Assembly: GCA_018302605.1 (NCBI GenBank)
Contig: JAGVZN010000022.1
Span: 1-46,566, forward strand
From: Candidatus Woesearchaeota archaeon
GTDB taxonomy: Archaea > Nanobdellota > Nanobdellia > Woesearchaeales > GW2011-AR9
Length of the DNA: 46,566 bases
Direction of reading: 5' to 3'
Both the position numbers and the translations under genes were made by a program. The number at the start of each line of letters is the position of its first letter. Within the stretch, counting starts at the first letter, position 1. The notes beneath the pieces are model-generated. The model ran no database searches and had not been told where the DNA came from. It was given only the letters and a program-made list of their open reading frames with translations. Of this stretch, positions 11,692 to 21,039 are shown in pieces.

Positions 11692-14600
11692 TCAGAAAAA
11701 ATTCCCCAACCCCATCTGCTTGCCTTTGCGTAAAAGCTCATCTTCCGTATAGCCGAAGACATTGAAGATTCCGATGACCGCCGGGATGACCTGATGGCCG
11801 ATATAATACTCCGCATCATACGATTTGACATCTTCCCGCAGCTGTGCCCGATCACGGACCAAACCGGAACCAGCGCCGATCACATACTCAATGACCCTGC
11901 CGGGGAAAACCCGTTCGCCTTTTTCTTCCATCCGTTTGGCAACGAGAACATGCGGCCCAAGTGAAGTGTATTGATCAAGTTCACGCGTGATCTGGGTCCT
12001 GATCACCAGTTTGGACAGATCGATTTTTCCTTCTTTCAATTCAGTGATGATCTGTCTAACCTGCGTAAACGCTTCTTCGGCTTTATCTTCAAGCACAAGC
12101 TGTAAGACTTTCTCCTGGATCTCTTTGGCTAAAAACGACCAGTTTCGGCGTATGGTCTCAAAGCCGACGATCTTCAAACTCCCGCTTTCACGCAGCAGCG
12201 CATACTTCTTCTTCGCGCCAAGATCCGTTCCTTTGACTGCGACAAACAGGCCGCGCGGGAAATAACCCTCGCATTCCAATTCCATCTGGCCGGGGAGATC
12301 GACATTGATCTCATCCATGAACTGTTTGGCCTCATCAAGATTTTTTTTACCTAAAAGCAAGAAAACACTATCGGTGTTATGAACGAGCAGAAGGCCTTCC
12401 GCGTCAACAAAATTATGTGCCGTTTCAACTTCGAGATCATAAACCGACCCCTCATAAGATTCTTCTTTTATTTCTTTTATTTTTGCAGCGATATAATTGC
12501 CCCTATCAACTCCTCTTGCTCCTTGAAGGCGTAGTGAAGAAATGGAGGGTTTATCTTTTCGATAACGCCAACCAATGTGTTTTATCTCTTTACCAAAATA
12601 AGTCTTGCCGTGAGTTAGAGATTTAAGTAAATATTGAACCCCGGATGCTAGATCTTTACTTTTCGTATCGAAACGAACAAAGTGGGTATAATATCTCAGA
12701 TCTCTCGTTTTATTTCCATCACCATCTAAATACCCTTTGATAAAAGATTGTCTAATTATCTCCTCTGAAGAATAAATAAATGGGGGGACGGTTTTTCCAC
12801 TACTGCTCTTGCCACAGCCAAAACCATAAACAAATAAAGCAACGATAGGAATTCTCTGGACTCGATAATAGTACATATTCTTGTTTATTCTCTGATCAAA
12901 ATTAACGACGATTTTAAAATTTTCTTGTAAGATCGTGTCAAAATATTGCTTCACTCTCTCAATTAATCCACGATCTTGGGAGCCAAATGACAGAATGCTC
13001 TTCCAACTATTTGTTGTTTTAAGATAACTTGCTGATCCCTCCGCACAATAGAAACCAAGGATCCAGGCTAGTTCTGAATTGAGAGTAAAAAAGCGGGGAA
13101 TTTTCCCCCCTTCACCATGCTTTGTGCCGATGAATTGAAAATCCAGTGAAGGAAGACTTTGTAAACCCATTTTTCGATCATCATGTTGAGAATGGACGTG
13201 ACTGGCCAGAGATCTACTCTGATGACAATAGGGACAAATCCCCCGCCGAGGAGGGAATTGCTTCGTATCTTTGTAAGAGAATATATTTTCAGCAAAGGGA
13301 CCAAACGACATGGTGGCAAGATCAAAAATGTGCCCCGAATGATAATTCTCTTTAACTGAAATGCCCGTGAGTGAAACTAAGCTGTCCCCTTCTTTGAGAG
13401 TTAGAGCATTTACTAATTTTGGTTTACCATCTACTAATTTATAAACGGAATGTTGAGGAGTAACTACTGTTGTGCCATGTGTTGTAATAAATCGTAGAAG
13501 TTTTCCTTTTTTAAGAGAGGAATAACCATGTCGAATGACTTTCGTGATGGGGCTAAAGATTAATTTTGTACCATCAAAAGCGAGAGTCTTGTATTTGTTA
13601 AACTGAAGAGGACTCCCATTTTGGTCTACAAAATCCCCAATAGAAATTAATTCAATTTCATCTTTTTCATTCATCATAAATATCTTTCGATCTGGCGGCA
13701 AACTGTCTCCGTAAACAATGCCAAAGCCATTCTCTTCTGCTTTCTTAATCGTCTTTTGGATATAATGACGGGCGTATGCCGTCGTCGAAGCGGCGCATTC
13801 CAGACAATACCAGCGCGCGCCGAAGAAACCAAGATAACCATAGAAAGCGTTGGCGAGGATCTTCAGCGCATAGGTGCGGGCTTCTAGCACCGAAACATCT
13901 TTTCCCGTCTTCTTCTCTTCTTTTAATTGTTTTTTGACGGCGGTGCGTTTCGTGATCAGATCGTCAAGGACGAGGGGGATGAATTTTTTCTCGCGCTGAC
14001 AGAACCAATATTCTTCTTTTTCCGGAACGTGCTCTTGATCGCGGCAGCAAGAACAGCGAAAAGCCTCCGGGCCGAGATTATGGGCAGTGATGATCGTCGG
14101 GTACAATGAACGGAAATCGAAGACAACAATATCTTGATACAAACCGGGAGTTGGCTGAAAGACGAAAGCGCCTTGGATGGATTCTTCCCTTCGTTCTTCC
14201 ATTTCCGACCCCTCGGCTTTATTGGGAGCAACAACATTGAATTCGATGGCGCGCCGGAGGATGTAATTCTCGACAAGTTTGCTGAAGCGCATGCGCGTGA
14301 CATCGAAAGGAGGAAGACCGACAATAGAGGTAAATTCGAGAATGTCAGACCATAATTTTTCGCAGAGCCGGCGCGTAAGAAGGGCATCGTGAAGGTTATA
14401 AGCACAATACGGGGCAATATTCTCCGGTTCGTTGTCCCAAATACCCGCAAGATTGTCTAAATTGACTTTATGCTTGCGGTAGCCGAGCAATTCTTGGGCG
14501 ACAGCATCAAGAGTGTAGCTATCCGTCTTTAAATTGAGGCCGAAAATCTGTTTGACAAATTTAAGCATGTCCAAATGGAGAATTCCCTTGATTTTCACTT

Positions 14601-15492
14601 CCCCACTGCGGAAACCGCTCCGGGAGAAGACCTGCATCTCTGAACCATCGAGGCCAAGGTCGAGGGGAAGCTGATACTTCGCCGCGCGTGTCTTAAGATA
14701 GGGCAGATCAAAGCCGTCAGAGAAATATCCCGTCAGAATCTCTGGGTTATATTCTTTGATGACCTGTCGGAAACGTTCCAGCATCGCCTGCTCATCAGCG
14801 ACGTGTTCGATATAAGGATATTCGTGGGGGAATTGTTTCCAGGTGATTACTTTCTGGAATTCGAGATTCTGCTCGTCGATTCCGGAGAGCCCGATCATCA
14901 GGATCGGATTTTTTTCGGGATCGATCTCTTTCTTTTCAGCGTAGGTTTCAATATCAACAGCGAGGATTTTCCATTTCGTCGTTCCTGCACCGGGAGTGAT
15001 TTTTTCCGCGAGGAAAAATGATTGGTTGGAAGGCGGTTCATCAATCATCGATGGATCAATGGAATGCCCTTCTACAATCATCTTCTGCAACGGCATGATG
15101 CCCGTGTCTCGCAGATAGCGGTGGACAAAAGGGATGTCTTTTTCAAAACATTCCAACTCCCACTGCTGAAATTCTTTGGAAAACAGAGGAACAGCTTTGG
15201 GGTAGCTGACCGAGACCTGCCAGAATTGCTCTTTCTTGCCGATGTATTCACGCTCGACTTCAATGACACTGCGGACGCGGGCAGTAGTTTGGTTGTCAGT
15301 GATCGTTGCTTTGGTGATCTTTTCTAAGAGTTGTTCTTTGTTTTTTAATGGAACGTGGACATAGAAGAAGGGATAGTGTTCATCAATGACGCAGATCTGC
15401 TTCCCTTCTTCTGTCTTGGCGAAAAGATACATGTAAACTTTGCCGTTCTTGACTTTGTATTCAAAATCGTAGGGATAGCAGATAAGGGGCAT
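11692..15492 (-). CDS. polB: Family B DNA polymerase, interrupted by an intein
   Basis: The replicative/repair polymerase precursor has about 1266 residues, of which 443 are intein, leaving an 823-residue enzyme. Exonuclease motifs are present: DIETYAEK (Exo I), YFSDGFDLPYL (Exo II), YNLHDALLTRRL (Exo III). Polymerase motifs are DFRSLYPTIITAHN (A), LKILANAFYGYLGFFGARWY (B) and YGD...TDSVF (C), the last being the intein insertion point. A cysteine cluster (CSCC...FC) sits after motif A. The start is ATG 15492: the reading frame is open 38 codons further up, but the TATA box is 26 nt before 15492 and MPLICYPYDFEYK matches a normal N-terminus. It is divergent from the HAD gene. Confidence 0.94.
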   Translation of the reverse strand: MPLICYPYDFEYKVKNGKVYMYLFAKTEEGKQICVIDEHYPFFYVHVPLKNKEQLLEKITKATITDNQTTARVRSVIEVEREYIGKKEQFWQVSVSYPKAVPLFSKEFQQWELECFEKDIPFVHRYLRDTGIMPLQKMIVEGHSIDPSMIDEPPSNQSFFLAEKITPGAGTTKWKILAVDIETYAEKKEIDPEKNPILMIGLSGIDEQNLEFQKVITWKQFPHEYPYIEHVADEQAMLERFRQVIKEYNPEILTGYFSDGFDLPYLKTRAAKYQLPLDLGLDGSEMQVFSRSGFRSGEVKIKGILHLDMLKFVKQIFGLNLKTDSYTLDAVAQELLGYRKHKVNLDNLAGIWDNEPENIAPYCAYNLHDALLTRRLCEKLWSDILEFTSIVGLPPFDVTRMRFSKLVENYILRRAIEFNVVAPNKAEGSEMEERREESIQGAFVFQPTPGLYQDIVVFDFRSLYPTIITAHNLGPEAFRCSCCRDQEHVPEKEEYWFCQREKKFIPLVLDDLITKRTAVKKQLKEEKKTGKDVSVLEARTYALKILANAFYGYLGFFGARWYCLECAASTTAYARHYIQKTIKKAEENGFGIVYGDSLPPDRKIFMMNEKDEIELISIGDFVDQNGSPLQFNKYKTLAFDGTKLIFSPITKVIRHGYSSLKKGKLLRFITTHGTTVVTPQHSVYKLVDGKPKLVNALTLKEGDSLVSLTGISVKENYHSGHIFDLATMSFGPFAENIFSYKDTKQFPPRRGICPYCHQSRSLASHVHSQHDDRKMGLQSLPSLDFQFIGTKHGEGGKIPRFFTLNSELAWILGFYCAEGSASYLKTTNSWKSILSFGSQDRGLIERVKQYFDTILQENFKIVVNFDQRINKNMYYYRVQRIPIVALFVYGFGCGKSSSGKTVPPFIYSSEEIIRQSFIKGYLDGDGNKTRDLRYYTHFVRFDTKSKDLASGVQYLLKSLTHGKTYFGKEIKHIGWRYRKDKPSISSLRLQGARGVDRGNYIAAKIKEIKEESYEGSVYDLEVETAHNFVDAEGLLLVHNTDSVFLLLGKKNLDEAKQFMDEINVDLPGQMELECEGYFPRGLFVAVKGTDLGAKKKYALLRESGSLKIVGFETIRRNWSFLAKEIQEKVLQLVLEDKAEEAFTQVRQIITELKEGKIDLSKLVIRTQITRELDQYTSLGPHVLVAKRMEEKGERVFPGRVIEYVIGAGSGLVRDRAQLREDVKSYDAEYYIGHQVIPAVIGIFNVFGYTEDELLRKGKQMGLGNFF
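12376..13704 (-). other. Intein with LAGLIDADG homing endonuclease in polymerase motif C
   Basis: The in-frame 443-residue insert splits YGD/TDSVF exactly between Asp and Thr. It starts with Ser (SLPPDRKIFM) and ends HN before Thr+1, as protein splicing requires. GTTVVTPQHSVY is splicing block B with its TxxH. Two LAGLIDADG-type helices, LAWILGFYCAEGSA and SFIKGYLDGDGNK, mark a homing endonuclease. A CPYC...H...H cluster (about 130 residues in) suggests a small zinc site. VYDLEVETAHNFV is block F and LLLVHN block G. Because the intein breaks the catalytic aspartates, the polymerase can work only after splicing. The insert is more AT-rich than the flanking polymerase, which fits horizontal spread. 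Confidence 0.94.
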
Positions 15493-15513
15493 GGTGATTT
15501 CGGGAGGAAAGTG

Positions 15514-15522
15514 CTTTATAAA
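15514..15522 (-). promoter_or_regulatory. TATA box of polB
   Basis: TTTATAAAG on the minus strand is centred 26 nt before the ATG at 15492, supporting that start. Confidence 0.65.
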
Positions 15523-15537
15523 AGTATGCTCCAAGAT

Positions 15538-15546
15538 GTTTAAATA
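15538..15546 (+). promoter_or_regulatory. TATA box of the HAD gene
   Basis: GTTTAAATA is centred 28 nt before the ATG at 15570, so the ATG at 15549 would lie upstream of the transcript. Confidence 0.6.
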
Positions 15547-15569
15547 GAATGAGGGGGAAAGAGGAAAAA

Positions 15570-16397
15570 ATGAACAAAGACATCCTCTTTCTGGACAAAG
15601 ATTCAACGCTCGGTGACTGGGTATGTGGAGACGGACTCTATCCTGGCGCGAAAGAGTTTCTGCAGCACGAGAGAGAGTGGGGGAGAGAACTGTACATCGT
15701 GACAGCCGCAGGAGAACCGGGAAGAGTGCACCTCGTGGAAGTCGATCATCTGTTAACTGATTATTTTGGCGGTGAGAAGATTGATGCTTCTCGCGAGGGA
15801 TTATATTGCTTTCCTGATGGGACGTTTAGAATTATTTCTGAAGATTATCGAAGTCGTATTTGGACTCTGCCCGATGAAGAGCGAAAACAGCTTTTTGCAG
15901 AAGTAGAGAAGTTATGTGATCAAAACGAGTTTACAATCAGCGACGCTGAAAGAGAATATTTACAAAAACAAATTGATGATTTTTGGAAAAAGTGGGGCGA
16001 CAGCATCAATATTAACACCGGCGAGTCATTTGATGAGACAACACGATATCAGAACCCCTATATCAACGGAGCGCATATGAAAGATCTTCATCTGGCACGA
16101 AGATTAATTTCTCCGCAAGACTTTCAACAGCTGCGAACGGTTATGGTGGGAGATCGGGGAGATGCGGATATCTATTCTTCTGACCCATCCACCCCGCTGG
16201 TAGTCGTTTCAAAACGCGTGAGAGAAGGAGAATGGAATCTTGTTTCCGCTATTGTCGACCTTCTGTTTGACAATCCGGAGAGAATGCTGTGGGAAATGTT
16301 TGATGGGCTGCATACAGCAGAGAACGTCACTTTACAAAATGAGAATTATAAATTTGAACGTAATGAATGGAGTTCAAGATTAGTCTATTGCCCCTAA
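15570..16397 (+). CDS. HAD-superfamily hydrolase
   Basis: The 275-residue protein has the order of HAD phosphatase motifs: DILFLDKDSTLGDW (motif I, DxDxT), YIVTAAGEPGR (motif II, T after hydrophobic strand), and MVGDRGDADIYSSD (motif III/IV, GDxxD). The substrate is unknown. Between motifs I and III there is a helical cap of about 130 residues, containing KQIDDFWKKWGDS. The DKDST nucleophile loop and GDRGDAD resemble polynucleotide-phosphatase and histidinol-phosphatase-like branches more than phosphoserine phosphatases, but this is only a hint. The start at 15570 is chosen from TATA spacing. Confidence 0.8.
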   Translation: MNKDILFLDKDSTLGDWVCGDGLYPGAKEFLQHEREWGRELYIVTAAGEPGRVHLVEVDHLLTDYFGGEKIDASREGLYCFPDGTFRIISEDYRSRIWTLPDEERKQLFAEVEKLCDQNEFTISDAEREYLQKQIDDFWKKWGDSININTGESFDETTRYQNPYINGAHMKDLHLARRLISPQDFQQLRTVMVGDRGDADIYSSDPSTPLVVVSKRVREGEWNLVSAIVDLLFDNPERMLWEMFDGLHTAENVTLQNENYKFERNEWSSRLVYCP

Positions 16398-16623: not shown

Positions 16624-16839
16624 ATGGGTCAAAAATTTACAGTTATTGTCGAACAAGGAGAGGACGGTTATCTGATCTCTGAAGTAGTGGAGCTTCCTGG
16701 CTGCCATACTCAAGCAAAAACCTATGAAAAACTAATTGAACGGACAAAAGAAGCAATCTCTTTGTATCTTGAAGCTCAGGGTACGTCAGAAGTTAAAAGT
16801 AAATTTCTCGGGTTACAGCAAGTTGAAATTGGAGCGTAA
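16624..16839 (+). CDS. hicB: HicB-family antitoxin
   Basis: The 71-residue protein has the short HicB fold: FTVIVEQGEDGYLISEVVELPGCHTQAKTYEKLIERTKEAI. The ELPGCHTQ strand-turn followed by a helix starting EKLIERTKEAISLYL is characteristic. It lacks the C-terminal DNA-binding domain of longer HicB proteins, so autoregulation may depend on the complex. It is separated from hicA by three bases, and antitoxin precedes toxin, as in many HicBA modules. The leaderless start is supported by a TATA box 27 nt upstream, immediately downstream of a family A palindromic element. Confidence 0.88.
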   Translation: MGQKFTVIVEQGEDGYLISEVVELPGCHTQAKTYEKLIERTKEAISLYLEAQGTSEVKSKFLGLQQVEIGA

Positions 16840-16842
16840 ACC

Positions 16843-17076
16843 ATGTCTGATAAGTTGCCTTCTTTAAAGGCAAAAGAGATTGCTAAAATTCTAGAGAAGT
16901 TAGGGTTCGAATTCAAAAGACAAAAAGGAAGTCATATGTTTTTTGCCCATCCGGATGGGAGAACAACCGTGGTTCCTAATCATCCAACAGAACACGTTGA
17001 TCGTGGTTTGTTGAACAAGATAATCAAACAAGATTTGTTGATGAACAGAGAAGAATTCCTGAGATATGTGAAGTAA
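16843..17076 (+). CDS. hicA: HicA-family mRNA interferase toxin
   Basis: The 77-residue protein shows the double-stranded RNA-binding-like HicA fold: LKAKEIAKILEKLGFEFKRQKGSHMFFAHPDGRTTVVPNH. The His in KGSHMFF is the family's catalytic histidine. VPNHPTEHVDRGLLNKIIKQ is the usual C-terminal half. HicA enzymes cleave mRNA when free of HicB. The gene follows hicB directly and both lie just downstream of palindromic element A1. All key residues are present, so the toxin should be active. Confidence 0.92.
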   Translation: MSDKLPSLKAKEIAKILEKLGFEFKRQKGSHMFFAHPDGRTTVVPNHPTEHVDRGLLNKIIKQDLLMNREEFLRYVK

Positions 17077-17672: not shown

Positions 17673-18201
17673 GCTTCTCTTTTCCGCTGATCTTTTCTTC
17701 TTTTGGTTCAGAAACTACTTCTTTTGGCTCCACTGTTTTTTCAGCTGTTGTTGGCTTTTCTGTCTGCCCTTGCAGCGCCGCAAACTCATCTTTGAGCAGG
17801 ACAAAAGTCCGGTCCAATTCATCTTCCGAAAGCTGTTTCGGTTCCCACTGCAGGTTCAGTCCATCATTATCCTGGCGGGGGATGACTTCGATGCCAAAAT
17901 GTGGAATGTTCTGTCCGGCTCCCAAGCCGTTGCGCACGAGAATATTTGTGCCTTTAGCACCAAGACATTCAAATACGGCGATGCTGACCTTGTTCGCCAG
18001 GACAGCACAATGGCTGAGGACATCTTCGGAAACCATCTCCAGGATGGGAGCATGCTCTCTCGGAAAGACGGTAATCTGTCCGGGGGTCAGGACATGATCG
18101 CGCACGGCGATGACAGCACGATCATCTTCATGGATGATGACCGCTTTGCTTTCGCCGGCAAGAATATTACATAATTCACAGCCCATGATTGATTTTATCA
18201 C
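17635..18201 (-). CDS. HIT-family protein lacking two of three active-site histidines
   Basis: This 188-residue protein has the HIT fold: CELCNILAGESKAVIIHEDDRAVIAVRDHVLTPG, KGTNILVRNGLGAGQNIPHFGIEVIPR. In active HIT hydrolases the last motif is HxHxH; here it reads H-F-G-I-E, so the nucleophilic middle His is Gly and the third is Glu. Nucleotide binding may remain, but catalysis is unlikely. The C-terminal 45 residues are a Lys/Glu/Pro-rich tail. The first codon is a GTG overlapping the upstream stop; the ATG at 18186 (MGCELCN) is an equally good start. It overlaps and is co-transcribed with a second HIT gene. Confidence 0.85.
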   Translation of the reverse strand: MIKSIMGCELCNILAGESKAVIIHEDDRAVIAVRDHVLTPGQITVFPREHAPILEMVSEDVLSHCAVLANKVSIAVFECLGAKGTNILVRNGLGAGQNIPHFGIEVIPRQDNDGLNLQWEPKQLSEDELDRTFVLLKDEFAALQGQTEKPTTAEKTVEPKEVVSEPKEEKISGKEKPNYLLKSLKKIP

Positions 18202-18932
18202 CGAAAGAGTTCTGCAATATCATCTAAGACGGCAGTAGGATTGGTCATCTTTTCGCTGTCTTGCTCGCTGTCCTCTTCGGGAGATGTTTTTACCTCTTTT
18301 TTCTTTTTTGTTCGCGATCCACTTTGTTTTTGTTTTGGCATTGTTGTCGGTTTCTTTTTTTCCGGAGTGATCTCTGGTGATATTTTCTCTTTCTCCACCA
18401 CGCCAGCCATTTCCCCACGTACAAGCTGCGCCAGCCGATCCTGCACGGCTTCTTTCACTTTTTCCGGTAATTCCGGATCGATCAGCTTGTCTTTGACCGC
18501 GAGCAGATGATCGCCTTCTTTTCGGGGAAGAAGATGGAGAAGAAAATGCTGCGCCCGCTGACCGGCGGCTGCGCCATTGGCGATGAAGATGTTTGTGCCA
18601 GAAACGCGCAAGGCACGAAGCTGCAGGCGTGAAAGCACTTTTGAGACAGAGAAGAGATGCTCCAATTCTTGTTGAGGCACTTGCGGCATGATCGCGTAAT
18701 GTTCTTTGGGCAGGAGAAGAAGATGCCCTTTGGTCGCCGGGTTGATATCCAGAACAGCCAGACAAGAATGGTCTTCATAGATTTTCTTACTGGGAATTTT
18801 TCCCGAAATAATCTGGCAGAAGATGCACTGCTGTTTTTGCAGCTGGCGGAGCTCTTCCGGAGACATGGACTTGAGCTTCTTCTCCAATTCTTTCTGTTGT
18901 TCTTCAGTGAGTTCCAGCGGAGTATCTACCAT
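18198..18932 (-). CDS. HIT-family protein with substituted nucleophile and charged C-terminal tail
   Basis: The 244-residue protein has a helical N-terminus (about 1-33), the HIT zinc/entry motif CIFCQIISGKIPSKKIYED, KGHLLLLPKEHYAIM and GTNIFIANGAAAGQRAQHFLLHLLPR. The active-site triad reads H-F-L-L-H, so the central nucleophilic His is Leu, while the outer two are kept. The tail from about residue 170 is very rich in Lys, Glu, Thr and Ser and looks disordered. The paired downstream paralogue has lost a different set of histidines. The two probably act together, perhaps as nucleotide-binding subunits. The TATA box is 26 nt upstream, so the mRNA is leaderless. Confidence 0.86.
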   Translation of the reverse strand: MVDTPLELTEEQQKELEKKLKSMSPEELRQLQKQQCIFCQIISGKIPSKKIYEDHSCLAVLDINPATKGHLLLLPKEHYAIMPQVPQQELEHLFSVSKVLSRLQLRALRVSGTNIFIANGAAAGQRAQHFLLHLLPRKEGDHLLAVKDKLIDPELPEKVKEAVQDRLAQLVRGEMAGVVEKEKISPEITPEKKKPTTMPKQKQSGSRTKKKKEVKTSPEEDSEQDSEKMTNPTAVLDDIAELFR

Positions 18933-18962: not shown

Positions 18963-18989
18963 GGTATCTTTGGTAAAATGACCGGTAAT

Positions 18990-18999
18990 CTTAAATATA
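18990..18999 (+). promoter_or_regulatory. TATA box of the queuosine-salvage gene
   Basis: CTTAAATATA is centred 27 nt before the ATG at 19022. The 89-bp gap thus carries two divergent promoters. Confidence 0.55.
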
Positions 19000-19021
19000 A
19001 TTTAATTCTATAAATAGATCA

Positions 19022-19981
19022 ATGGACATACTCGCTGGCGCTAAATTTGTTGTAGAAAATGCTCAGCATATTTCTATCAACAAGAACGCATTGGTCTCGT
19101 TTAGCAAGAACTTTCATCATGGAGATGTTAACCACTGGCTTTCTGCTGCCCCCGTTGATTTTTCTGCATTGAGCGAAGAGGAAATATTAAACTTTCTCCT
19201 CGTCTACAGTACTATTGGCTTTTGCTACTGGGGGAATCAACCATGGTCAGTTAAATATCGTGGAAAGAAACACCTCGGTTCTTTTGCCATGCTCGCTGCG
19301 ATCATGAAAGCCCATGAAAAAGGCATACAAATACTTGATCCCAAATATAGAAGTCGTATCAATGCACAGGAATTCTCTGAGATTTTGGAAATCAAAGAGA
19401 ACAACCAGATTTATTTATTTCAGGAAAGGTTGGCATTTCTTCACGAAAGTGGGGCTGTCATTCTCGAAAAATACGATGGAAAAATTTCAACTCTTCTGAA
19501 GTTAGGAGATGGCGATGTCATCAAGCTTCTGGACATTCTTACGCGTGATTTTTTGGCGTATAACGATTTTTACACCTACTGCGGAAAGAAAATATCTTTC
19601 AATAAAAAAGCTCAACTTTTCATCTCTGATGTCTTCCAGATATTTGGTGGAGAGGGAATCGGTCATTTTCATAATATCCAGAAACTAACAGCGCTAGCAG
19701 ATTATCGGATTCCCCAAGTATTGCGAAACTTGGGCATTTTAGTCTACTCCCCTGAATTGGCAGATAAAATTGATCGAGGCATTTTAATCTCGAAAGGAAG
19801 TCCTGAGGAAATTGAACTTCGGGCAGGAATGATCTGGGCTGTTCATCTTATTTATAATTTAATCAAAGAAAGGGAACAGAGAGTCTTACCAATTGGGGTA
19901 AATGATCATCTTTGGTTATTGAGAAGGCAAAAATTTTCAGACGACCACATTCACCATAAGACGATTACGACCGGGTATTGA
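19022..19981 (+). CDS. Qng1-like queuosine-nucleotide glycosidase (DUF2419)
   Basis: Segments IGFCYWGNQPWSVKY, GSFAMLAAIMKAHEKG, LTRDFLAYNDFYTY and FHNIQKLTALADYRIPQVLR match the DUF2419 queuosine-salvage family, which in eukaryotes and some bacteria releases queuine from queuosine 5'-phosphate. ADYRIPQ with its Asp is the most telling motif. Length (319) is normal for the family. Archaea normally modify tRNA with archaeosine rather than queuosine, so a salvage enzyme here would mean scavenging of queuine from other organisms or a related 7-deazaguanine nucleoside. No queuine transglycosylase or transporter is nearby. It has its own leaderless promoter. Confidence 0.8.
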   Translation: MDILAGAKFVVENAQHISINKNALVSFSKNFHHGDVNHWLSAAPVDFSALSEEEILNFLLVYSTIGFCYWGNQPWSVKYRGKKHLGSFAMLAAIMKAHEKGIQILDPKYRSRINAQEFSEILEIKENNQIYLFQERLAFLHESGAVILEKYDGKISTLLKLGDGDVIKLLDILTRDFLAYNDFYTYCGKKISFNKKAQLFISDVFQIFGGEGIGHFHNIQKLTALADYRIPQVLRNLGILVYSPELADKIDRGILISKGSPEEIELRAGMIWAVHLIYNLIKEREQRVLPIGVNDHLWLLRRQKFSDDHIHHKTITTGY

Positions 19982-20028: not shown

Positions 20029-20838
20029 CTATCCCAAAAACTCCCGCACATTCCGAAACTCCATTTTCACAAACAAGCGAAAATCAATCCCCCGTTCTTT
20101 CAATTCATGCAAAGCGAGCTGCACATGCGTGCTGCCTTTAGGCAAAGTAAAACCGGCTAAACTACTCAAGTACTGCAATTGCTGTAATGCGGCTGCCCGC
20201 GCCAAGATGGACGCGGCGGCGATCTCTACATATTTACTTTCACCTTTCTCAACGGCAAGGTCGCCCACCGTACAGCCAGGATATTTGTCAACCACGTGCT
20301 TGCCGGGAAAAAGGTGCTTGGCGGTATCATGATGCAGATTGTTCAGCAGGATCGTAACTTTACCAACACGGTTATATTCCTCCGGAAGCAGACCGCGGAC
20401 TTCACAGGGCGCGAGATTCTTGATCTCAACGGCCAGACGTAGAATTTCACGATCGTCAAGAAGCTTGCTGTCGGCTACGCCCAGCTCATGCAGTTTCTGT
20501 CGCAGAGCAGCATCAGCTTTGACCGCCGCAACAACCAAGCCACCAAAGGTATCGCCTTTCAATGATTCATCGCTGCCGATAATCCAGCCCGTTTCCTTAC
20601 GAAAATGCTCTTCCGGATCGGGGCGGGTGATGCCGATCATCTTCAGATCGTGAAGAACACTTTCCAAAGCATCCGCCTTGCCTTGCAACAATAATTTGCC
20701 GGAAGTGTACAGAATCAGCTTGACGCTGTTTTTCTGCAGGCAGAAAGTTTCATAGATGGTCTTTGGCTCTAGTGGGGTATAGCCCTTCTTCAGAAGCTTC
20801 TCGAGAACTTCCTGCTCCACTTTCTCAAAAACAACCAT
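20029..20838 (-). CDS. rnhC: Ribonuclease HIII
   Basis: It cleaves RNA in RNA-DNA hybrids. GWIIGSDESLKGDTFGGLVV carries the first Asp-Glu pair, LGVADSKLLDD the third acidic residue, and VVDKYPG the fourth; GESKYVEIAAASILARAAAL is the conserved RNase HII/HIII helix. A TBP-like substrate-binding domain precedes it (about 1-95: VKLILYTSGKLLLQGKADAL), which distinguishes HIII from HII. The frame stays open up to 20937, but those 33 extra codons are translated partly from a palindromic element. The ATG at 20838 has a TATA box 27 nt upstream and is chosen. RNase HIII is mostly bacterial; archaea usually have HII. Confidence 0.85.
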   Translation of the reverse strand: MVVFEKVEQEVLEKLLKKGYTPLEPKTIYETFCLQKNSVKLILYTSGKLLLQGKADALESVLHDLKMIGITRPDPEEHFRKETGWIIGSDESLKGDTFGGLVVAAVKADAALRQKLHELGVADSKLLDDREILRLAVEIKNLAPCEVRGLLPEEYNRVGKVTILLNNLHHDTAKHLFPGKHVVDKYPGCTVGDLAVEKGESKYVEIAAASILARAAALQQLQYLSSLAGFTLPKGSTHVQLALHELKERGIDFRLFVKMEFRNVREFLG

Positions 20839-20859
20839 ACCGGTAGAGATGACGTCTCG

Positions 20860-20870
20860 TTTAATAAAAT
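20860..20870 (-). promoter_or_regulatory. TATA box of rnhC
   Basis: ATTTTATTAAA on the minus strand is centred 27 nt before the ATG at 20838. It shows that the longer reading frame starting at 20937 is not the native protein. Confidence 0.6.
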
Positions 20871-20882
20871 CTTCGGCGGATA

Positions 20883-21039
20883 GTATTTGTTTAGCTGGCG
20901 GCAAGGCCACAAAGTGTATCCGAAGATGCTTGAACACCTAGCTTAGTGCGGAAATCTTCTGTTCCACAACAAGATGCAGACAAAATAGCGGCCGATTTCC
21001 GCTCGGATACACTGCCTGCCGGAAAAGCTAAACAAATAC
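20883..21039. mobile_element. Palindromic element, family A, copy 2 (157 bp)
   Basis: GTATTTGTTTAGC begins and GCTAAACAAATAC ends the element. Left arm TGGCGGCAAGGCC, right arm GGCCTGCCGGAAAA. Inner stem GTGTATCCGA (20914-20923) pairs perfectly with TCGGATACAC (21003-21012), and GCGGAAATC pairs with GATTTCCGC. No clear 8-bp target duplication remains (GGCGGATA left, GGAAGAGA right). The left end lies 12 bp upstream of the rnhC TATA box. Translation across the end produces the peptide ALPPAKQI, which artificially extends the rnhC reading frame. Confidence 0.88.

Follow-up and report, generated by a model that had tools for sequence, protein, structure and literature searches.

The Qng1 gene (DUF2419, Q_salvage) considered here occupies positions 19022..19981 of the plus strand in a window of 46,566 nucleotides, the whole stretch of DNA analysed, which is a contig from the metagenome-assembled genome (MAG) of a Woesearchaeota archaeon of the order Woesearchaeales. 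An ATG-initiated frame spans exactly this interval and encodes 319 amino acids and a stop codon; the product is proposed, from the frame, Pfam, PDB and a structural model, to be a queuosine-5'-phosphate N-glycosidase. A chance frame is rejected at this place, the probability of such a length at the local base composition being about 2e-8. The Qng1 gene is solitary, flanked by a divergent HIT-domain gene (18198..18932, minus strand; PF01230, E 9e-20), which lies outside any Qng1 operon, and a convergent gene of the RNase HII family (20029..20937, minus strand; PF01351, E 3.6e-20), given for context only. The A/T-rich stretch before the start codon (18988..19021, plus strand) has, by reading only, no obvious Shine-Dalgarno sequence, and may serve as an archaeal promoter for a leaderless unit of one gene. 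The same 46.6-kb contig codes for archaeal eIF2-gamma, Cdc48 and a family-B DNA polymerase (PolB), and the G+C content of the Qng1 gene is 39.5% compared with 44–50% in seven genes nearby, a difference that fits lateral gain. Elsewhere in the window, the family-B DNA polymerase gene (11692-15606, minus strand) is split by an intein that comprises a splicing part and a LAGLIDADG part, and a small gene pair lies at 16624-17076 (plus strand), the second member of which encodes a HicA toxin (PF07927, E 4.5e-21), while the first, with 0 Pfam matches, may encode its HicB-like partner. No tRNA genes were found in the window or in five other loci of the same genome.

The identity of the protein is well defined by sequence and fold. 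The Pfam profile PF10343 (Q_salvage) matches it with an E value of 2.6e-72 (244.2 bits, cut-off 25) over residues 51–316, corresponding to profile positions 6–282 of 285 and thus nearly the full length. The closest PDB sequences are those of a bacterial Qng1 (E 3e-52), which we take to be of the Sphaerobacter type, and of human Qng1 (E 2.3e-43). An AlphaFold model of the protein, built with 20 archaeal sequences, reaches a pLDDT of 91.4 and a pTM of 0.91, with 0 residues below a pLDDT of 50, and superimposes on the bacterial Qng1 structures with a TM score of 0.92, a Z score of 43.2 and an rmsd of 1.6 over 314 residues. All Qng1 structures score between Z 41.5 and 43.2 against this model, and the next fold, that of the 8-oxoguanine DNA glycosylases, scores Z 14. 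With the bacterial Qng1/DUF2419 proteins (PDB 7u07, 7u91, 7ulc; Z 42–43, rmsd 1.6–1.7 Å) and with the human protein (7ugk; Z 41.5, 27% identity), it shares the fold, the full length, and the catalytic Asp and Lys. It differs from the solved bacterial enzymes in its archaeal owner, in an identity of 31–32%, in the lack of an adjacent Tgt gene, and in belonging to a sequence group of DPANN archaea and CPR bacteria.

The D231N and K199C mutants of the solved bacterial enzyme, taken from PDB titles, allow its two mutated residues to be traced in the alignment. K195 (codon 19604..19606, plus strand) aligns with K199, which is changed to Cys in PDB 7u5a, and the position holds Lys in 100/100 aligned Qng1 rows. 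D227 (codon 19700..19702, plus strand) aligns with D231, the Asn mutant of which was solved with queuosine-5'-monophosphate in PDB 7ulc; this position holds Asp in 99/100 rows. The remaining row, from the woesearchaeal genome G010 (locus L008), is the sole Qng1 of the 100 with Glu for the catalytic Asp, in a genome that is rated as 100% complete and has a Tgt. Most of the columns invariant in 20 Qng1s of the order are also invariant across the 100 sequences of all groups. Short of an assay, it is close to certain from the sequence and the model that the window gene encodes a true Qng1. The preliminary description had called it a DUF2419 glycosidase and had made that call depend on an active-site Asp; the sequence, fold and catalytic residues all bear this out, the Asp being D227. 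The enzyme family itself is known and the protein adds a member to it; the interest lies in the archaeal setting and in the missing arcTGT around it.

Genes that could accompany Qng1, for which tgt/arcTGT and YhhQ-type transporters had been suggested in the preliminary description, were sought throughout the genome, the MAG of which has a contamination of 0.3% and a completeness of 90%, so that absences are provisional. There is a single TGT-family gene, a member of the G34 type (TIGR00430, 416 bits, cut-off 306.75), lying near an archaeal-type uS7 gene; against the arcTGT model (TIGR00432) its product reaches only 155 bits (cut-off 350), and the TIGR00432 search returned no arcTGT over the cut-off in this MAG. 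A transporter of the YhhQ/QPTR type (queuosine-precursor transporter) is present as well (TIGR00697, 91.2 bits, cut-off 50.95; PF02592, E 5e-44); judged by its family, it may bring in queuosine precursors. The genes for Qng1, Tgt and QPTR are each on a different contig. As for the synthesis of queuosine (Q), profile searches of the MAG gave no match for QueA or QueH, and the best QueC match, at 26 bits, exceeds the Pfam cut-off of 22 but falls far under the 104–206 bits that the order's four clear QueCs reach. The QueE profiles find an orphan radical-SAM protein of the QueE family (C19:25606-26298; L161 8604-9524), which passes none of the curated QueE cut-offs (highest score against TIGR03963, 73 of 260 bits). 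Without QueA, QueH and a convincing QueC, there is no sign that the organism makes preQ0 or finishes Q, and, with a Q-type Tgt and a QPTR present, the scavenging proposed at the outset is favoured.

The most likely role of the enzyme, and one that we consider somewhat better than an even proposition, is scavenging that serves a Q-type modification of the wobble base. The QPTR would import precursor bases, while Qng1, with a chemistry deduced from its family, would hydrolyze queuosine-5'-monophosphate, which would arise from the breakdown of Q-containing tRNA, possibly that of a bacterial host or prey, or the cell's own, to queuine and ribose 5-phosphate, and the Q-type Tgt would then swap G34 of GUN-anticodon tRNAs for the recovered base. 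The substrate, the direction of flow and the acceptance of queuine or a derivative by Tgt are all inferred. Such an arrangement would resemble queuine salvage in eukaryotes and Chlamydia, which combines a Tgt of changed specificity with queuine uptake: this genome likewise has Tgt and QPTR without QueA, QueH or a convincing QueC, and eukaryotes possess Qng1 too. Its Tgt, however, is not of the queuine type by motif, as set out below, whereas GGSLG Tgts do occur elsewhere in the order, in genomes that lack QueA and often beside a QPTR.

Archaeosine is generally taken as the mark of archaea, queuosine being assigned to bacteria and eukaryotes. The preliminary description started from the same division, in which archaeosine but not queuosine is an archaeal product, and this premise fails in the present order. 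A TGT-family match is found in 117/193 genomes, 114/193 of which pass the Q-type cut-off, and arcTGT (TIGR00432) exceeds its cut-off in 0/193, the genome under study included, although 117 genomes have matches below it; as a control, the same model passes its cut-off in 4/14 control genomes, which equals the number of archaea among them. The sampled members of the order thus do not make archaeosine by the known enzyme, and Q-type modification is common among them. For QueA, 31/193 genomes score over the cut-off, every one of them with a Tgt; QueH is found in 29/193, and QPTR in 57/193. Although 174/193 genomes match QueC at an E value of 0.001, only four score above 100 bits across the whole model and a fifth scores 56, and the others look, by their scores, like cross-matches to related ATP pyrophosphatases; similarly, 70/193 genomes have a QueE-like match but only four exceed 50 bits, the remainder looking like radical-SAM cross-matches. 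Qng1 exceeds the cut-off in 23/193 genomes, and 22 are counted as full-length, namely 25 matching genomes minus G013 and G183 (partial and below the cut-off) and G084 (a fragment with stops). The archaeosine-only premise is also at odds with Castelle et al. 2021 (PMC8204110), in which genes of Q synthesis (QueA, QueH and Tgt) are already reported in 12 DPANN genomes. That study has the Q-type Tgt of DPANN archaea in common with the present analysis, but it concerns QueA, QueH and Tgt; the word "salvage" is absent from its main text, and "duf2419" has a full-text count of 0. Within those parts of the open-licence PMC literature that could be searched, no report of Qng1 or of queuine salvage in archaea was found.

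Which base the Tgt of this genome inserts depends on its pocket. When 111 archaeal Tgts from 110 genomes of the order were aligned with that of E. coli, leaving out seven genomes with split or partial Tgts (G029, G032, G033, G048, G064, G117 and G179), three pocket types emerged. The first, GG-xLG and mostly GGSLG, occurs in 26 genomes, 0/26 with QueA and 20/26 with QPTR, which lies within 3 kb of Tgt in 16 of them. The second, GG-xFG, occurs in 12 genomes, eight with QueA, and the third, a long-loop pocket (e.g., GGLAIG/GGVAIG with LDDM/LDDV), comprises 73 Tgts, the one under study among them, with QueA in 21. The differences in QueA between xLG and xFG (p 1e-5) and in QPTR between xLG and long-loop (p 4e-6) are significant by values that are optimistic, given that the genomes are related. 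According to PMC11570991, the signature of a queuine pocket is GG[LS][AS]G; GGSLG, which is close to, yet distinct from, this signature, looks like a queuine pocket from these associations and from its occurrence beside bacterial Qng1. The GGVAIG of the Tgt studied here, accompanied by Met where bacterial Tgt has Cys158, fails the published motif and also differs from the GGSLG of the Tgts that adjoin bacterial Qng1. Since a change of Val233 to Gly gives room for queuine in the Tgt pocket, as stated in PMC3660597, this Tgt should resemble preQ1 enzymes. It must be added that Ile, found at the corresponding place in 17/21 long-loop genomes with QueA and in 37/52 without it, is similarly frequent in both, so that the pocket does not separate the two sets. 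As a separate observation, 52/73 long-loop Tgts, including that at L002 1468-2607, belong to genomes without QueA. While the protein is classified here as Qng1, direct queuine salvage is not assigned to the genome, because its Tgt lacks the queuine motif. Possible candidates for the inserted base are queuine, preQ1, or preQ1 made from queuine, and possible ways round the mismatch are a pocket widened elsewhere, preQ1 as the end product, or trimming of queuine by a QueL-like enzyme.

If Qng1 serves Tgt, the two genes might be expected to keep company, and the extent to which they do bears on an alternative in which Qng1 is catabolic, stripping the base off deazaguanine nucleotides, whether taken up or produced internally, to gain ribose 5-phosphate or to remove the modified nucleotide, with no link to a Tgt that inserts salvaged preQ1 or preQ0. 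Across the order, a general association is rejected, with Tgt in 12/22 full-length Qng1 genomes compared with 117/193 overall (Fisher p 0.64), which leaves 10/22 with no Tgt match. Among the 20 genomes placed on the tree (G129, G167 and the second copy of G041, having no locus, are not placed), Tgt is found in 7/10 of the clade studied here (p 0.74), in 3/3 of the bacterial clade and in 1/7 of a third, divergent one. The lack of a statistical link, the clade with 1/7 and the preQ1-like pocket of the Tgt thus all fit the catabolic reading, which is nevertheless unlikely, if still to be reckoned with, given the 7/10 of the relevant clade, the QPTR of the genome and the strong pairing of the two genes in bacteria. 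The divergent Q_salvage clade (L011, L013, L015, L016, L018, L019 and L020), marked by inserts such as 'NNRLFDNGNG', probably does something else, to judge from its 1/7 with Tgt, and may have another substrate.

The bacterial pairing is seen in named bacteria, in which 24/48 Qng1 loci have a Tgt 9–880 bases downstream on the same strand, with GGSLG in 22/22 readable motifs; where the locus has none, 22/22 further genomes carry a Tgt elsewhere. In the records from CPR bacteria, DPANN and other archaea, some of them cut by contig ends, none of the 32 loci has a Tgt within 6 kb of Qng1, and a Tgt is seen in 17/28 of these genomes, many of which are small or partial. Of 80 named Qng1 loci, 50 had their genomes included in the genome-wide check, the other 30 being 24 bacteria with an adjacent Tgt, two other bacteria, and four archaea taken as already in the order set. 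Within the order, Qng1 and a GGSLG Tgt stand side by side in two genomes, G015 and G091, where the pair was apparently taken over as an operon. The markers near Qng1 in G015, including a ClpX-like protein, are not decisive, and that operon could be a binning error, while G091 has a TruD, the best model family of which is presumably the archaeal one.

A second alternative keeps the link to tRNA but makes it indirect: Qng1 frees queuine, a QueE-like radical-SAM enzyme trims it to preQ1, and the preQ1-like Tgt inserts preQ1 as the final modification, QueA being missing. Its model is the indirect salvage by QueK and QueL, which we take to be that of Clostridioides difficile and which has in common with this genome a nucleosidase that frees queuine (here a predicted activity), a preQ1-type Tgt pocket and a radical-SAM protein of the QueE family; in contrast, the nucleosidase here is of a different family, and there is no QueA to finish Q. 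The QueE-family protein is an orphan without a convincing QueC partner, and clear relatives occur in three other genomes of the 193; Qng1 is present in three of these four (hypergeometric p 0.005, among several comparisons made). The QueE-like orphans of this genome (L161 8604-9524) and of G114 (L174 1489-2256), both Qng1 genomes without a convincing QueC, have additional residues separating the second cluster cysteine from the third. In keeping with such a route, PMC11130926 describes QueL as an enzyme that restores preQ1 from queuine for use by a canonical Tgt, and PMC11570991 reports preQ1 as a natural trace in the tRNA of Bartonella. The protein could, however, be an ordinary or relic QueE, the relatives in G158 and G174 sharing a contig with QueC; other Qng1 genomes with the same Tgt class, such as G010, have no QueE-like match, and the tie to QueL was made by family and description, not by the sequence of QueL. 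On balance, this route is rather improbable, a little more so than the catabolic one.

It is also conceivable that the protein acts on another substrate, either a nucleotide of the preQ1 or archaeosine type or a damaged one. A ureide-permease-type transporter adjoining a bacterial qng1 carried preQ0/preQ1, to the surprise of its authors (PMC11130926), and the identity to the solved bacterial enzymes is 31–32% only. However, the two residues targeted by mutation in the solved enzyme are conserved, the columns invariant within the order are mostly invariant in all groups, and no arcTGT over the cut-off is seen in the genome to supply archaeosine, which together make a changed substrate decidedly improbable.

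Several observations bear on the origin of the gene. In a tree of 100 sequences, the Qng1 studied here falls into a group of 40, almost only DPANN archaea and CPR bacteria, which are intermixed, with a support (85/93) below the starred level; its best identity, 45%, is to a Diapherotrites protein. The clearest case is a pair of Qng1s that are 93% identical, one from a Moraniibacteriota bacterium and one from the woesearchaeon G136 (L192 5974-6945 and L007 1498-2460); the former follows directly after murF and lies near a PBP gene, showing that this copy is bacterial, while the domain markers around the archaeal copy are not decisive. Another Moraniibacteriota and a nanoarchaeote have Qng1s that are 91% identical. 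The 93% pair offers a concrete case of gene traffic between two ultra-small radiations. As to carriers, a search for Qng1 in viral contigs gave 24 pattern stretches, none a relative, and a single-protein scan of named genomes gave 27, again none a relative. That the gene is foreign to this archaeal genome through contamination of the MAG, a reading to which its G+C content and CPR relatives could be turned, is scarcely credible, since the low G+C fits lateral gain, the contig carries the archaeal eIF2-gamma, Cdc48 and PolB, the MAG contamination is 0.3%, and full-length Qng1 is found in 22 genomes of the order.

A wider view of the order, which we put forward tentatively and regard as possible rather than probable, is that this DPANN order gave up the G15 archaeosine enzyme, that any deazaguanine modification would be carried out by G34 Tgts fed largely by scavenging, and that the Qng1 of this genome came from a pool circulating between CPR and DPANN, its Tgt taking either queuine, via a pocket unlike that of known queuine Tgts, or preQ1 carved from queuine. 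If the order does lack arcTGT, has a Q-type Tgt in most of its members and salvage genes in some, it would be well suited for asking why a reduced genome should retain a micronutrient for its wobble base, from where a symbiont obtains it, and which pocket changes let a Tgt switch from preQ1 to queuine. The transporter has a relative of its own among the Diapherotrites: the QPTR of this genome is 79% identical to one lying 4 kb from Qng1 in a Diapherotrites record, a linkage in line with the scavenging role, the next best among the loci compared being 50%. On that contig (L197 1275-6948), QPTR and Qng1 lie on one strand, and a NUDIX-like gene, recognized by reading only, ends right before the start of Qng1.
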